This document shows positions 16,475 to 43,940 of a stretch of 43,940 bases of DNA, piece by piece. Numbering within the stretch: position 1 is the first letter of the stretch; the number at the start of each line of letters is the position of its first letter. Made by a program: the position numbers and the translations under genes. The notes beneath the pieces were generated by a model. It saw only the letters and a list, made by a program, of their open reading frames with translations, was not told the DNA's origin and did not search any database. Origin of the DNA: a virus; the IMG/VR virus record IMGVR_UViG_3300045918_000395, positions 1-43,940 of that record; one strand, 5' to 3'.

Positions 16475-16541
16475 GGGGCCTTGCTAGCACGCTCATGGTT
16501 TGGGTTTATTTGTTTCAACAGCAATAAAGCTAGCTTGGCCC
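16475..16541. repeat. Inverted repeat upstream of short recombinase
   Basis: Arms GGGGCCTTGCTAGC (16475-16488) and GCTAGCTTGGCCC (16529-16541) pair over GGGCC/GGCCC and GCTAGC/GCTAGC around a 40-base loop. It lies between the secreted-protein stop and the recombinase ribosome site. There is no T-run. It could be a recombinase binding site or a stabilising RNA hairpin. Confidence 0.5.
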
Positions 16542-16568
16542 TATTTTATGCGCATAAAGGAAAAATAT

Positions 16569-17120
16569 ATGCATAATAAATATCAAATTACTGAGAATCA
16601 CCACTTAAGCACAATCGAATTGTCCACACTAATAAGTCGATTCAGCAAACCACAGCTAAACCGTAACGAACTAATGATAGCATTACTGCTTATTACTGGC
16701 GCACGTTCTCAAGAGCTTTTAAGCACTCGTGGCTATGACATTGACCATTTGACTAAATCTATACTCATCCATGGACGTAAGGGCTCTAATGACCGCAGGC
16801 TGCCTTTAAACGACAACGTATATGAATCACTTAAATCTTATATAAATGGTGGCGAAAAGCTATTCAGCATCGACACAAGGCAGCTTCGAAATATTGGCTA
16901 TGGATTTGTACAAAGAAAGAAAACAGCTAAAGGTAATATATGCCTACACAGACTGAGACATACATTTGCTATAGAAACGTACAAAAAGTCTAAGGACATT
17001 CTACTAGTAAAGCTTGCTATGGGTCACAAGGACATTAAAAGCACTATGGTATATACGTCTTATGTTGATGGTATTGAATCTCTTAGTATGTTGAGAAATA
17101 ACATCTGTTTTACAATATAG
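16569..17120 (+). CDS. Short tyrosine recombinase (catalytic domain only), 183 aa
   Basis: All catalytic residues are present. They are Arg46 (GARSQEL), Lys71 (GRKGSNDR), His127 and Arg130 (LHRLRHTF), His153 (MGHKDIKST) and the nucleophile Tyr162. There is no N-terminal DNA-binding core domain and only 45 residues precede the catalytic Arg, giving a length like FimB/FimE-type recombinases of about 200 residues. The ATG at 16569 has AAAGGA upstream. A longer frame from 16500 lacks a ribosome site and overlaps the inverted repeat. It converges on, and overlaps, the PAS-like gene by 11 bases. Site-specific inversion or multimer resolution is more likely than integration, since a full integrase lies at 29.6 kb. 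Confidence 0.85.
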   Translation: MHNKYQITENHHLSTIELSTLISRFSKPQLNRNELMIALLLITGARSQELLSTRGYDIDHLTKSILIHGRKGSNDRRLPLNDNVYESLKSYINGGEKLFSIDTRQLRNIGYGFVQRKKTAKGNICLHRLRHTFAIETYKKSKDILLVKLAMGHKDIKSTMVYTSYVDGIESLSMLRNNICFTI

Positions 17121-19553: not shown

Positions 19554-20177
19554 TTATTTAGAAATTAGCTTAGATAAAAGAGTAGTAAGAATCTCTATCT
19601 TTGACTCTAAGGCAGTGACCTTTTCGTTAAGCTTTGAAAGCCTATCTGTCATATGTGAATCTTCAATTTTAGATACAGATATTTCTTTTTCTACAACTGT
19701 AGACTTGTTAACTACATCTTGATCAGCCAATATGTTTTCAGCCAATAACTCTCTTGGTGAAATATTAAGTGCTTTAGATATTAGTATCAGACTTCGGCTT
19801 GATGGATACCTGTAGGCGTATAAGTATGACCTTAATGTACCAATAGAGATTCCTGACTTCTTAGACATAGCCTCTGTATTCCAACCACGTTTTCTCATCT
19901 CTTCGCCAATTCTGCGAGAGGAAATATTAACATTACCTGTTGGGTTGTACTTGTTTTTACCGAAATCAACTAGTGCAGGGTATGTTGTATTAAGTATTGC
20001 ACATACTTTTTTCATCGTCTCTTCACCAAACGATGCGTCACCACACTCTACGTTTGAAACAGAACTTCTAGTTAGACCAAGCTTTTCAGCAAACTCATCT
20101 TGAGTTAAGCAATGAAGCTCGCGCTCTAGCTTAAGTCCTTTCCCGAATAGAATTTTGTTCTGTTTATCATCATTCAT
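19554..20177 (-). CDS. Double-HTH (XRE) lysogeny repressor, 207 aa
   Basis: An HTH lies at about residues 13-65 (LTQDEFAEKLGLTRSSVSNV) and a second at about 90-145 (TEAMSKKSGISIGTLRSYL, then SRSLILISKALNISPRELL). Residues 165-205 form a coiled coil (RLSKLNEKVTALESKIEIL) that probably dimerises it. There is no S24/LexA peptidase domain and no Ala-Gly cleavage site that I can see, so RecA-driven self-cleavage is unlikely. It faces the rightward operon across a region with four GATACGTACTA-type sites. It should hold the rightward promoter and its own promoter in the lysogen. Confidence 0.8.
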   Translation of the reverse strand: MNDDKQNKILFGKGLKLERELHCLTQDEFAEKLGLTRSSVSNVECGDASFGEETMKKVCAILNTTYPALVDFGKNKYNPTGNVNISSRRIGEEMRKRGWNTEAMSKKSGISIGTLRSYLYAYRYPSSRSLILISKALNISPRELLAENILADQDVVNKSTVVEKEISVSKIEDSHMTDRLSKLNEKVTALESKIEILTTLLSKLISK

Positions 20178-28614: not shown

Positions 28615-28817
28615 TACAAAGAAACAGAAATTTAAGATCAACACCGCCAAAAATAGCAAATGATATAGCTTTGGGTCCAAATGAAAAAAACGAAAATGAC
28701 TGGTCAATACTTATACTAACAGACCACAAAAAGAATGCTCAAACATTCAAGCTTACACCAAAGCAAGTAGATGGAATATACAAAGGTCTTGATAAATACT
28801 TTAAGGAAAAAACATGA
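28611..28817 (+). CDS. Small hypothetical protein, 68 aa
   Basis: It starts at an ATGA overlap and ends in another. The protein (MIQRNRNLRSTPPKIANDIA, then NDWSILILTDHKKNAQTFKL) is mixed, with a helical tail (KQVDGIYKGLDKYFKEK). No family is recognised. Confidence 0.55.
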   Translation: MIQRNRNLRSTPPKIANDIALGPNEKNENDWSILILTDHKKNAQTFKLTPKQVDGIYKGLDKYFKEKT

Positions 28818-29428
28818 AATATTTAATTAGATTTTTTATCAAAACAGCAATGTACAAATGGCTTATGGACCACGCAGTACCGTTTATTCGCTTCACTACA
28901 GGATTGCCTAGAATGTCAGGAGCACGCTTCCTTGAGGGCTATGTAAAGCTTAAGCCAGGGCATATTATACTTTGTGTAGATAAGCGTAAGCTATCAGCCT
29001 TGGTAGTGCCAGGTGAGTTTAGCCATGCTGCTTTAGTATGTCGTAATTTGGTGGGTGTAAAGAATCGTAACTTTAGCCAAAGCCATGAAATTGTCGAGAT
29101 GACTCACACTGATTTCACTAAGAGCTATTTCTTTGATATTTGTAAAGAGAGTGACCGAGTGGTGATTTTAGAGTGTACTGACTTCGACGATTCATATGCT
29201 AATGCTGTTGTGGCAAAGGCTGAGGGTTTTGATGGAGTAAAGTACGATGATACGTTTGAACTTGGTACAGAGGCTTTATATTGCTCAGAGCTTATATATA
29301 TGAGTGACTTTGATCGTAGGCTTAAGTTGAGTATTACAGAGGACGCTACACTTGGCATGAAGTACATTTCACCAGACGATTTGTACAAAGCTGAGAATGT
29401 GCGAGTTGTATATGACAGTGGTTATTAA
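28814..29428 (+). CDS. YiiX-like permuted NlpC/P60 cysteine hydrolase, 204 aa
   Basis: The permuted order is visible. KLKPGHIILC is followed by GEFSHAALV with His71, and later EALYCSELIY with Cys157. This is the arrangement of YiiX/YebB-like proteins of the NlpC/P60 superfamily. The N-terminus is basic and amphipathic (YLIRFFIKTAMYKWL), which could bind membrane. The family hydrolyses amide bonds in cell-wall peptides or lipids. The substrate is unknown here. It is coupled by ATGA and is the last large gene of the rightward operon. Confidence 0.75.
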   Translation: MKYLIRFFIKTAMYKWLMDHAVPFIRFTTGLPRMSGARFLEGYVKLKPGHIILCVDKRKLSALVVPGEFSHAALVCRNLVGVKNRNFSQSHEIVEMTHTDFTKSYFFDICKESDRVVILECTDFDDSYANAVVAKAEGFDGVKYDDTFELGTEALYCSELIYMSDFDRRLKLSITEDATLGMKYISPDDLYKAENVRVVYDSGY

Positions 29429-29569: not shown

Positions 29570-30634
29570 TTACTTACCCTGCCCTATTATTCTATTTACC
29601 ATATCAATCTCAACGTCTCTAATTACAAACCCAGCGTAATGTTCTTCAGTAGCCTTTAGCGAGTCACCAATCAAGTTTGCACATTTATCCAACGGTACAC
29701 CCCTAGACAGCATTTCTATAACGTATGAGTGCCTTAAGTCGTGTGGACTTATATGCTTTGATTTGTCTTTTGGGAATGCTTTTTTTGCCGCAAATGTTAA
29801 ATAGTGTGAGCAGTTATTTCTATATTCATTTTTATTCTCAACATCAGACCACCTTTTGAAGCTATCTTTAAACTCACGCAACAATATAGTTCTATAGTTT
29901 TTCTTATTTTTTCTCTGTCTAGTTGAAAAATCTCTAGTTAGCTGCATAGATATATAAATTGACCCATTAGAGCTTAACATGCCTTCATTAAGCTTAAAAG
30001 CCTCACCAAGCCTTACTCCTGTACCAAATAGAGTACCATATAGGCTTGCAAGTACAGGGTCTTTAACAAACGCTATTATTTTATTAAATTCTTTGATAGT
30101 AACATGGCTTATTTCACGATGAGGTACTTGGTATGTCTGAAGCTTAATACGCCCGATATGATTAAGAAGAGAATTTATCCTTCCTACATATCGCCTATGT
30201 TGTATCTCATTAAATACCTTATCTACACACTTCTGAAGATCGTCATTAGATGTACTTATTATTGAGTGATTATCTATAGATTTAAGCGCAAAAATGAATT
30301 GTGAATATGCCGTATCTTTAGATAGCATCTTTTTCTTTTTATAAACAGTATTCCAATATTCATCGAAAAGCTTTTGGTTTTGGATATTAGTGATAGCCCT
30401 AATTTTAGCTGATTCATTTACTTCTCTATCTTTTTTCCAGTCGTTTATAAATACATTAAACCTAATCTCAGCATCTTCTCTGTTAAAAAGACCACTCTTT
30501 AATGCGCTATTTATTGAGTCTAATCTCTCATCTTCAAGCTTTATATATTTAACTTCACCATTGATATTCTCTTTAATATGAACAGAATAAGACCTACGCT
30601 TATCATCAGGTTTTTTAATTGTTAGACCAGCCAT
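29570..30634 (-). CDS. int: Phage integrase, tyrosine recombinase, 354 aa
   Basis: Full-length integrase with an N-terminal arm/core-binding region, then LFGTGVRLGEAF (catalytic Arg), SPHDLRHSY (His-x-x-Arg) and LIGDSLKATEEHYAGF with the nucleophile Tyr. The second His (canonical LGH) is Asp here. The start ATG at 30634 has ACGAGGTGTGT upstream. A GTG-start version (30640) is less likely. It lies 18 bases after the 3' end of a tRNA-Leu gene on the same strand, so both could be in one transcript. It converges on the end of the rightward operon, and should integrate into a tRNA gene. Confidence 0.92.
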   Translation of the reverse strand: MAGLTIKKPDDKRRSYSVHIKENINGEVKYIKLEDERLDSINSALKSGLFNREDAEIRFNVFINDWKKDREVNESAKIRAITNIQNQKLFDEYWNTVYKKKKMLSKDTAYSQFIFALKSIDNHSIISTSNDDLQKCVDKVFNEIQHRRYVGRINSLLNHIGRIKLQTYQVPHREISHVTIKEFNKIIAFVKDPVLASLYGTLFGTGVRLGEAFKLNEGMLSSNGSIYISMQLTRDFSTRQRKNKKNYRTILLREFKDSFKRWSDVENKNEYRNNCSHYLTFAAKKAFPKDKSKHISPHDLRHSYVIEMLSRGVPLDKCANLIGDSLKATEEHYAGFVIRDVEIDMVNRIIGQGK

Positions 30635-30652
30635 ACACACCTCGTAAATAGT

Positions 30653-30739
30653 TGGTGCGAGAGAGGGGACTTGAACCCCTACAATCTTTCGATCGCAGCC
30701 ACCTCAAGGCTGTGCGTCTTCCAATTTCGCCACTCTCGC
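30653..30739 (-). tRNA. tRNA-Leu (anticodon GAG) with encoded CCA
   Basis: The 7-bp acceptor stem GCGAGAG/CTCTCGC is followed by A and encoded CCA at the 3' end. A D stem GCG/CGC, anticodon stem CAGCC/GGCTG with loop TTGAGGT (anticodon GAG), a long variable arm (CGATC/GATTG with GAAA loop) and the T arm AGGGG/CCCCT with TTCAAGT are all intact. The long variable arm is typical of tRNA-Leu. It decodes CUU and CUC. It is intact rather than a remnant, and lies 104 bases from a second, different tRNA-Leu fragment. Confidence 0.93.
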
Positions 30740-30842
30740 ATTTATTTATTTGGTTTTCAGTCTACCACAACCCCTTTTTCAGCTCACACCAATTTGACTT
30801 AAGCTATCGAAATTATACAACTTCATTGTACTTTTTTCAAAG

Positions 30843-30869
30843 ACCTCAAGCTAGTGCGTCTACCAATTT
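30843..30869 (-). other. Putative attP core: fragment of host tRNA-Leu(GAG)
   Basis: The minus strand reads as D arm, then anticodon arm of a tRNA-Leu (AAATTGGTAGACGCA, then CTAGCTTGAGGT) and stops at the anticodon loop. It matches the intact phage tRNA at 23 of 27 bases but has a more typical D loop and a different stem. It lies 104 bases from that tRNA and 209 from the integrase start. Host sequence is needed to prove that it is the crossover site. Confidence 0.65.
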
Positions 30870-42423: not shown

Positions 42424-43940
42424 CTAGTTGACCTGCTTTATTTCAAACACATTGCCGCCTGCTGCATTTTGCCAGTAGATGGGCGTTGTGACGTTTGTAT
42501 TCACTTTAACCGCTACTGTGTCCCCAGCGACAACTTTAATTGTTGCGGAGGCCGTTGAGCTTAATCCAGTATAATTACCCGTTGCATACCTTCTTTCGAA
42601 AGCAATGCTTGTTGCATTTTGGAATATTGCTATGTCAACAAGAGATGAAGTCGCAAATGTTCCATCAACACTAAATGTTGCATGGATATAGAATTTTCCA
42701 GATACACTAAAAGTGTATAACCCAGTGCTTGAGTTATAACTTCCCGTCGAATCATAAACAACGGTCGGATAAGCTATTTGAGTTTGAGTAGCGGGCGGCG
42801 TTCCCGATGGGCTTGTAGCTCGCATTGATATGTCTTGCCCAGCCATTATGCTCTGTGCGCCGGATGCCAGTGTAATTGTAAAATTATTACGAGAGGCCGT
42901 AGCGAAAGTTGACATGTTTACACTCGGACGTATGTCTACGATGTCACCAACAACAAATGAAGCCGATGTGCTACCTCCTTGAGGAGCATTCGCTGTGCCG
43001 CCAAAACTAAACTCTTTAACTAAAGCTGCGTTTTTATAAATCTGTAAACTACCGCCAGCTGTGGCTGATGATGGATTTACATAAGCTTGTATTGAGTACA
43101 CTCCCGATACTTGGATTGTATATTGACCTGTAGTCGCGTTATATGCTGCATTTGAATCTTTATCGACTGTAGGAAATATTATTGGATTATTTGCAGTAAC
43201 GTTTGCAGGCACTCCACTTACTTGAGCAGAAACCACACGACCGTCATAGTTTGAAATTACTTGTGATGCATAGTATTCTTCTACTATAATAACACCAGAT
43301 CCCCCGGCTCCACCAGGGTATACTCCAGAAGGAGTTTGCGGTGCTCCAGCACCGACTGTATATAAATAAGATGGGGATGGATTGGCTATTGTCGCTTCTA
43401 TGTAACCACCTGCACCTCCGCCTCCGCCAGTAGCGTAGCCGCCGACGTACAAACCGCCTCCGCCTCCTCCACCGCCCGTATTTGCAGCGCCAGGATTTCC
43501 AGCAGAAGACGCCCATCCTCCTCCACCAGCTCCACCGAATGGATTGTTACCGCCAGCTCCTCCAAGACTTCCTCCACTAGTATTTGTACCACCAGACCCA
43601 GTTCCGCCGACAAGAACTATACCAGTGGCTCCAGATCCAATTGTTCCTGAACCACCAGCTCCGCCAGATCCTCCATTTATTGTATTTAGTCCGGCACCAG
43701 TTCCGCCGTTGGCAGTTAGTAAAGAAGTTCCAAATGTAGTAGCAGTTCCATTGCCACCAGCAGATCCAGAAGATGCATAGTTTGAACTTCCAGCGCCACC
43801 TCCGCCGGACATTTTTACTTTAATCATTGAACAGCCGTAAGGAAGTGTGTAAGTTGCTGCAGTTCCAGAAGTTAAAATTTGAGTTGTTATTTTGCCAGTT
43901 GACCCATACCCGCCGAACGCTTGTGGTGCTACTTTGAATT
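42424..43940 (-). CDS. Tail fibre / adhesin, C-terminal part (runs off window end)
   Basis: This is the second part of the 898-residue adhesin that starts at 1423. It overlaps bases 1-243 in phase. After about 40 residues (APQAFGGYGSTGKITTQIL) comes a long glycine-rich domain (GGGGAGSSNYASSGSAGGNG, repeated GGGG blocks for about 150 residues), like polyglycine receptor-binding domains. Two tandem C1q-like beta domains end the protein. Each has the pattern YNxxTGxYTxxVSGxYxIxA followed by a later GDxVxV. The tip should bind a host surface molecule. A Lys/Arg difference exists between the two overlap copies. Confidence 0.85.
   Translation of the reverse strand, partial: FKVAPQAFGGYGSTGKITTQILTSGTAATYTLPYGCSMIKVKMSGGGGAGSSNYASSGSAGGNGTATTFGTSLLTANGGTGAGLNTINGGSGGAGGSGTIGSGATGIVLVGGTGSGGTNTSGGSLGGAGGNNPFGGAGGGGWASSAGNPGAANTGGGGGGGGLYVGGYATGGGGGAGGYIEATIANPSPSYLYTVGAGAPQTPSGVYPGGAGGSGVIIVEEYYASQVISNYDGRVVSAQVSGVPANVTANNPIIFPTVDKDSNAAYNATTGQYTIQVSGVYSIQAYVNPSSATAGGSLQIYKNAALVKEFSFGGTANAPQGGSTSASFVVGDIVDIRPSVNMSTFATASRNNFTITLASGAQSIMAGQDISMRATSPSGTPPATQTQIAYPTVVYDSTGSYNSSTGLYTFSVSGKFYIHATFSVDGTFATSSLVDIAIFQNATSIAFERRYATGNYTGLSSTASATIKVVAGDTVAVKVNTNVTTPIYWQNAAGGNVFEIKQVN
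43698..43940. repeat. Terminal direct repeat, right copy (circular overlap)
   Basis: This is the second copy of bases 1-243. The one difference (T at 43814, C at 117) changes Lys to Arg just before the Met-Ser-Gly-Gly start of the glycine-rich domain. That fits either a population variant or an end-of-contig error. Confidence 0.95.

Follow-up and report, generated by a model that had tools for sequence, protein, structure and literature searches.

The phage analysed here very probably lysogenizes its host in a tRNA-dependent manner, at a tRNA-Leu(GAG) gene that it would break on integration and replace with its own intact copy. The evidence comes from the anatomy of its attP region and from Bdellovibrionota genomes in which elements with related integrases have split host tRNA genes at the same place.

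Anatomy of the attP region

The window (the whole stretch of DNA analysed) is a virus record of 43,940 bases with a GC content of 38.6%. Its last 126 bases (43815-43940) duplicate positions 118-243, so the record is probably a near-complete genome; the repeat suggests a circular or terminally redundant molecule with 117 extra bases at the start of the record. Judged by gene content, the phage is temperate. Besides the genes listed below, it carries an anti-repressor gene, Erf-type and RecE-type recombination genes, a terminase gene and a portal gene (the last a weak match). Near the integrase region, 28814-29428 (+) encodes a permuted papain-like amidase of the YaeF/YiiX family (C92). The features relevant to integration and lysogeny are as follows.

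16500-17120 (+), second tyrosine recombinase, 206 aa, catalytic domain only (sequence match)
19554-20177 (-), CI-like repressor, supporting a temperate lifestyle (sequence match)
29570-30640 (-), full-length tyrosine integrase, probable start ATG at 30634 (PF00589, E 4.7e-9; PHROG 1, E 8.3e-17)
30653-30739 (-), intact tRNA-Leu(GAG), CCA encoded (ARAGORN)
30759-30770 (-), second putative arm-type repeat, TTGTGGTAGACT (position and 24-bp spacing as in genomes G206 and G372)
30784-30795 (-), first putative arm-type repeat, AAATTGGTGTGA (position and 24-bp spacing as in G206 and G372)
30812-30840 (-), sigma-70-like promoter TTGAAA-17-TATAAT, 11/12 (by consensus match)
30843-30869 (-), attP core fragment: 27 nt, D-arm to end of anticodon loop, exactly as in tRNA-Leu(GAG) genes (sequence match)

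Read on the int strand, the order is the 27-nt fragment (30869-30843), a 103-nt spacer, tRNA-Leu(GAG) (30739-30653) and the int ATG (30634), which is preceded by a Shine-Dalgarno-like GAGG. The tRNA, the single one found by ARAGORN in the whole window, ends 12 nt before the integrase reading frame and 18 nt before the probable ATG. A sequence-only reading had described this intact tRNA adjoining int, and a fragment of a different tRNA-Leu(GAG) that holds neither tRNA end and diverges from the phage tRNA at 4 of 27 bases. All of this was borne out (23/27 identical, 85%; nothing 3' of the anticodon loop is present, nor is the 5' acceptor strand), except that the distance between the two features, given as 104 bases, is 103 by our count. 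The promoter begins 3 nt past the fragment and lies between the attP core and the phage tRNA. The catalytic R, HxxR and Y residues are visible in the integrase sequence. Box III of most tyrosine recombinases contains His or Trp, and here (NLIGDS) Asp takes that place. Relatives of the second tyrosine recombinase were seen in a viral contig (G022) and, in two copies, in the prophage region of G165.

The likeness of the fragment to tRNA-Leu(GAG), judged from sequence matches, is not due to chance. The 26-mer AATTGGTAGACGCACTAGCTTGAGGT has at least 119 matching stretches in bacterial genomes; among the matches listed, it sits in tRNA-Leu(GAG)-like genes, where it is followed by GC in place of the CT of the phage. 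The full 27-mer, which the sequence-only reading had proposed to look for in host genomes, occurs exactly in 5/291 Bdellovibrionota genomes, in tRNA-Leu(GAG) genes. The fragment ends at the point where phage and tRNA diverge, and crossover probably falls within the anticodon-loop bases TTGAGGT (30843-30849), a placement based on the split position of host tRNAs in the relatives described below. When model attL and attR junctions were built with a host gene bearing the 27-mer, neither contained a tRNA.

We infer that the integrase would act on the attP core (30843-30869) and on a host tRNA-Leu(GAG) gene, recombining the two in the anticodon-loop region. The host gene would be broken and neither junction would hold a complete tRNA, because the phage DNA to the right of the loop is not tRNA sequence and the fragment to the left has no acceptor strand. 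The phage tRNA would come to lie between the orphaned host 5' half, ~100 bp upstream of it, and int, and would supply the lost function from its own putative promoter (30840-30812); the host tRNA promoter, now upstream, might also drive it. As part of this overall reading, we regard the tRNA at 30653-30739 as, with high probability, the replacement for the disrupted gene, and it would then be essential to the lysogen.

Split host tRNA genes in Bdellovibrionota

The host is likely a member of Bdellovibrionota, because both the distribution of terminase relatives and the integrase relatives (G206, G002 and G372) point to this phylum. Terminase relatives were found in viral contigs and in 5/291 Bdellovibrionota genomes (three of these 44-47% identical) and in none of 274 genomes of Gammaproteobacteria. 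This contrast, taken alone, is modest evidence, and the integrase relatives strengthen the host assignment. The prophage of G165 shares virion genes and a RecE-like gene with the window phage. Bdellovibrio phage phi1422, the top match of the RecE-like exonuclease, was set aside as a possible relative since its annotated genes, including baseplate genes, are those of a myovirus. Different tRNAs (Phe-GAA, Asn-GTT, Arg-ACG, Val-AAC) are found in some of the terminase-related viral contigs (L130, L133, L137, L152, L153, L197, L228).

The whole-genome search for the integrase covered Bdellovibrionota and returned relatives 28-51% identical, among them G206 (43%, full length), G002 (51%, C-terminal part) and G372 (41%). 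None was found in viral contigs or genome contigs with peptide patterns, or in phage records with tblastn. In the integrase tree, the window groups with G206, G372 and G002 with support of 99/98.

G206 provides the firmest case, because it is a single contig (3.26 Mb, 43 tRNAs); many of the genomes used may be metagenome-assembled. Its order is the 5' half of a host tRNA-Leu(GAG) gene (GCGCGGGTGGTGGAACTGGTAGACACGCATGTTTGAGG), 106 nt, an intact tRNA-Leu(GAG), and int. The 3' counterpart (ending CTCGCGCACCA) sits at the far edge of the insert, 112 kb from the 5' half. The insert is mostly 38-43% GC, and the windows at its edges and beyond are 50-64% GC. The element that splits the tRNA occupies C1 424.3-536.5 kb, ~112 kb (L361-L363, L308-L311). 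The structure in G372 is the same, with the two junctions on separate contigs. Both junctions were thus found in both genomes, and the host tRNA-Leu(GAG) is cut after the anticodon loop. The elements share 8-9 bp with the host site, and the host gene is left split. Joined together, the halves give a complete, perfect tRNA-Leu(GAG) in each genome (ARAGORN); therefore the halves, rather than the intact gene, belong to the host. The only intact tRNA-Leu(GAG) in G206 is that of the element, beside the integrase gene. As support for its proposal, the sequence-only reading had asked for a prophage that splits the host tRNA in a genome without a further GAG copy: the relatives provide this (split genes in G206 and G372, a sole intact copy in G206), and no lysogen of the window phage or of a close relative was found among the genomes searched.

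The same left junction was observed at four further integrase-linked loci, G356 and G250 (Leu-GAG), G110 (Ser-GGA) and G287 (Leu-CAG), as well as at G265 (Leu-TAG), where the integrase reading frame is broken. At all five the 5' half stops at or just past the anticodon loop, and an intact tRNA of the same isoacceptor follows 139-160 nt from the half. For G110, G250, G265 and G356, no attR was found in the stretches examined. Scanning 369 genomes for the 5' part of tRNA-Leu(GAG) added at least three loci: in G302 an integrase gene directly adjoins the locus, and in G127 and G393 no integrase was recognised in the stretches read. In total, at least 10 loci in the phylum combine a half tRNA with an intact cognate tRNA (Leu-GAG at least 7, Leu-CAG, Leu-TAG and Ser-GGA), and the distance from replacement tRNA to crossover is 103 to about 174 bp at all loci seen. 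On the integrase tree, where six rows were labelled with the trait and the window row was unlabelled, the split-tRNA/replacement trait requires at least 3 changes.

These loci bear on the view that the window phage integrates in the ordinary way, with one junction restoring the host tRNA and the phage tRNA serving as an unrelated translational supplement or as a defence against host systems that cut tRNA. Other members of the integrase family do adjoin one intact tRNA without a half gene upstream (for example Leu-TAA in G259 and G374, Leu-CAA in G079, Asp in G371), as expected of ordinary integration, and tRNAs in many phages are carried for other purposes. However, the window attP holds neither end of the tRNA, both model junctions are free of tRNA, and the nearest integrases with readable junctions (G206 and G372) leave the host gene split. 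We therefore consider ordinary integration improbable.

The window spacer also resembles those of the two relatives. Its TGGT-containing repeats lie at +51/+75, compared with +52/+76 in G206 and G372, and the same placement arose in 4/20,000 shuffles of the window spacer. This resemblance weighs on a different explanation, in which an earlier imprecise excision left the fragment as a scar and the phage now integrates elsewhere, for example through the recombinase encoded at 16500-17120. The presence of that gene and the absence of both tRNA ends from the fragment would fit such a history; against it, the window phage agrees with the attP/attL of G206 and G372 in its fragment, in the length of the spacer, in the spacing of the repeats and in the order of tRNA and int, and the 16500-17120 frame encodes a catalytic domain only, in contrast to the full-length integrase next to the fragment. 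A scar is, in our judgement, very improbable.

Tyrosine-integrase-mediated, tRNA-dependent lysogeny at tRNA-Leu(GAG) remains the reading we favour, and within it the integrase grouping, the positions of the spacer repeats and the tRNA-free model junctions very likely place the window phage with G206 and G372. Several observations count against it, the lack of a lysogen among the genomes searched being one. Virion-gene relatives of the window phage lack this integrase, and are therefore uninformative about attP. The stretch common to the window and its putative attB is 27 bp, more than the 8-9 bp of G206 and G372 and the published 8-17 bp; though longer, this common core still rebuilds no tRNA. 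Another such observation is the Asp in box III. The earlier proposal that integration destroys the host tRNA and that the phage copy replaces it appears largely right, judging from the integrase relatives and the model junctions.

D-loop-like repeats in attP

The spacers of the integrase family contain two direct repeats 23-24 bp apart, which by their position are probably arm-type integrase sites. These repeats resemble the D-loop of the targeted tRNA: TTGGTAGAC in Leu, TTGGTTGAC in Ser, GGGTTATAAA in Asp and CACTGGTAGACA in Leu-CAA elements. Over 13 elements the match between repeat and D-loop was equalled in only 2/20,000 permuted assignments, in a test in which the elements are related and the repeats were picked by eye and a simple scan. 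The fit was poor for the Leu-TAA element of G259, and no repeat pair was found in the Met and Pro elements. The repeat tends to change with the target (GGTAGAC for Leu, GGTTGA for Ser, GGTTATAA for Asp and ACTGGTAGAC for Leu-CAA).

The 27-bp fragment in the window may be more than a passive remnant: its D-loop part is similar to the two attP repeats, and may itself be a binding site, because the phage side of attR in G206 and G372 also bears TTTGGTAGAC just left of the crossover. A broader proposal, to which we give somewhat less than an even chance, is that the integrase reads the tRNA gene partly through its D-loop, so that the attP repeats and the attB D-loop would be the same kind of binding site and the 27-bp fragment would be functional. 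A change of target tRNA would then go together with a change of repeat. Phage tRNAs depart from GGTAGAC in the window (GGAAGAC), G372 (GGCAGAC) and G206 (GGTATAC). We do not claim that these changes let them avoid their own integrase: GGCAGAC is present elsewhere in the phylum too, and GGTAGAC is retained in G356 and G287.

Relation to known systems and meaning for the phylum

The mechanism agrees with the definition of tRNA-dependent lysogeny given by Guerrero-Bustamante and Hatfull (2024; PMC10865867), and its kind is therefore already known. In mycobacteriophages, deletion showed that the phage tRNA is needed for lysogeny (PMC10865867). The actinobacteriophages Fionnbharth, LeBron and Gaia similarly combine a tyrosine integrase, an attB in a host tRNA gene, a short core that does not rebuild the gene and a phage tRNA of the same isotype; in Gaia, too, a tRNA-Leu is used, but CAA (PMC10865867). 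In contrast to these phages, the present hosts are Bdellovibrionota, the window phage keeps the side from D-arm to anticodon loop, and the attP repeats resemble the target D-loop. The replacement tRNA here lies near the crossover, whereas that of Fionnbharth overlaps an opposite-strand gene, 37, and is served by a tested promoter of its own (PMC10865867). Boilgate and Omega, which integrate into tRNA genes in the ordinary way, likewise use a tyrosine integrase and a tRNA attB; unlike in the window, their attP carries the 3' half of the tRNA and the gene is whole again at attL (PMC10865867).

The same authors asked how common tRNA-dependent lysogeny is outside actinobacteriophages. Cases outside Actinobacteria are mentioned in that paper and in two by Sinorhizobium authors (PMC11476347, PMC12429752). 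As these citing papers describe them, Lactobacillus johnsonii prophage Lj965 and prophage-related sequences of Sinorhizobium resemble the present elements in that the host loses a tRNA, or has it replaced, and a cognate tRNA comes with the element. Our literature search found no description of tRNA-dependent lysogeny in Bdellovibrionota and, with most subscription journals outside its reach, no mention of D-loop-like attP repeats. As far as searched, the phylum, the compact layout with the tRNA beside the attP core, the number of isoacceptors sharing one layout and the D-loop-like repeats look new.

tRNA-dependent lysogeny recurs in the phylum of Bdellovibrio-like bacteria, at four isoacceptors and in at least two supported integrase clades. 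The cassette (half tRNA, short spacer, whole cognate tRNA, usually with int nearby) can be searched for in any genome. It offers a reason for some phages to carry exactly one tRNA, and shows a route by which a foreign tRNA gene replaces a chromosomal one. Since the window phage would break the host tRNA-Leu(GAG) gene and bring its own copy, protein synthesis in the host would come to depend on the virus. Such a dependency device would penalise only decay or deletion of the prophage, because the host gene is restored when excision is precise. The idea that an essential tRNA ties a host to its prophage becomes testable.
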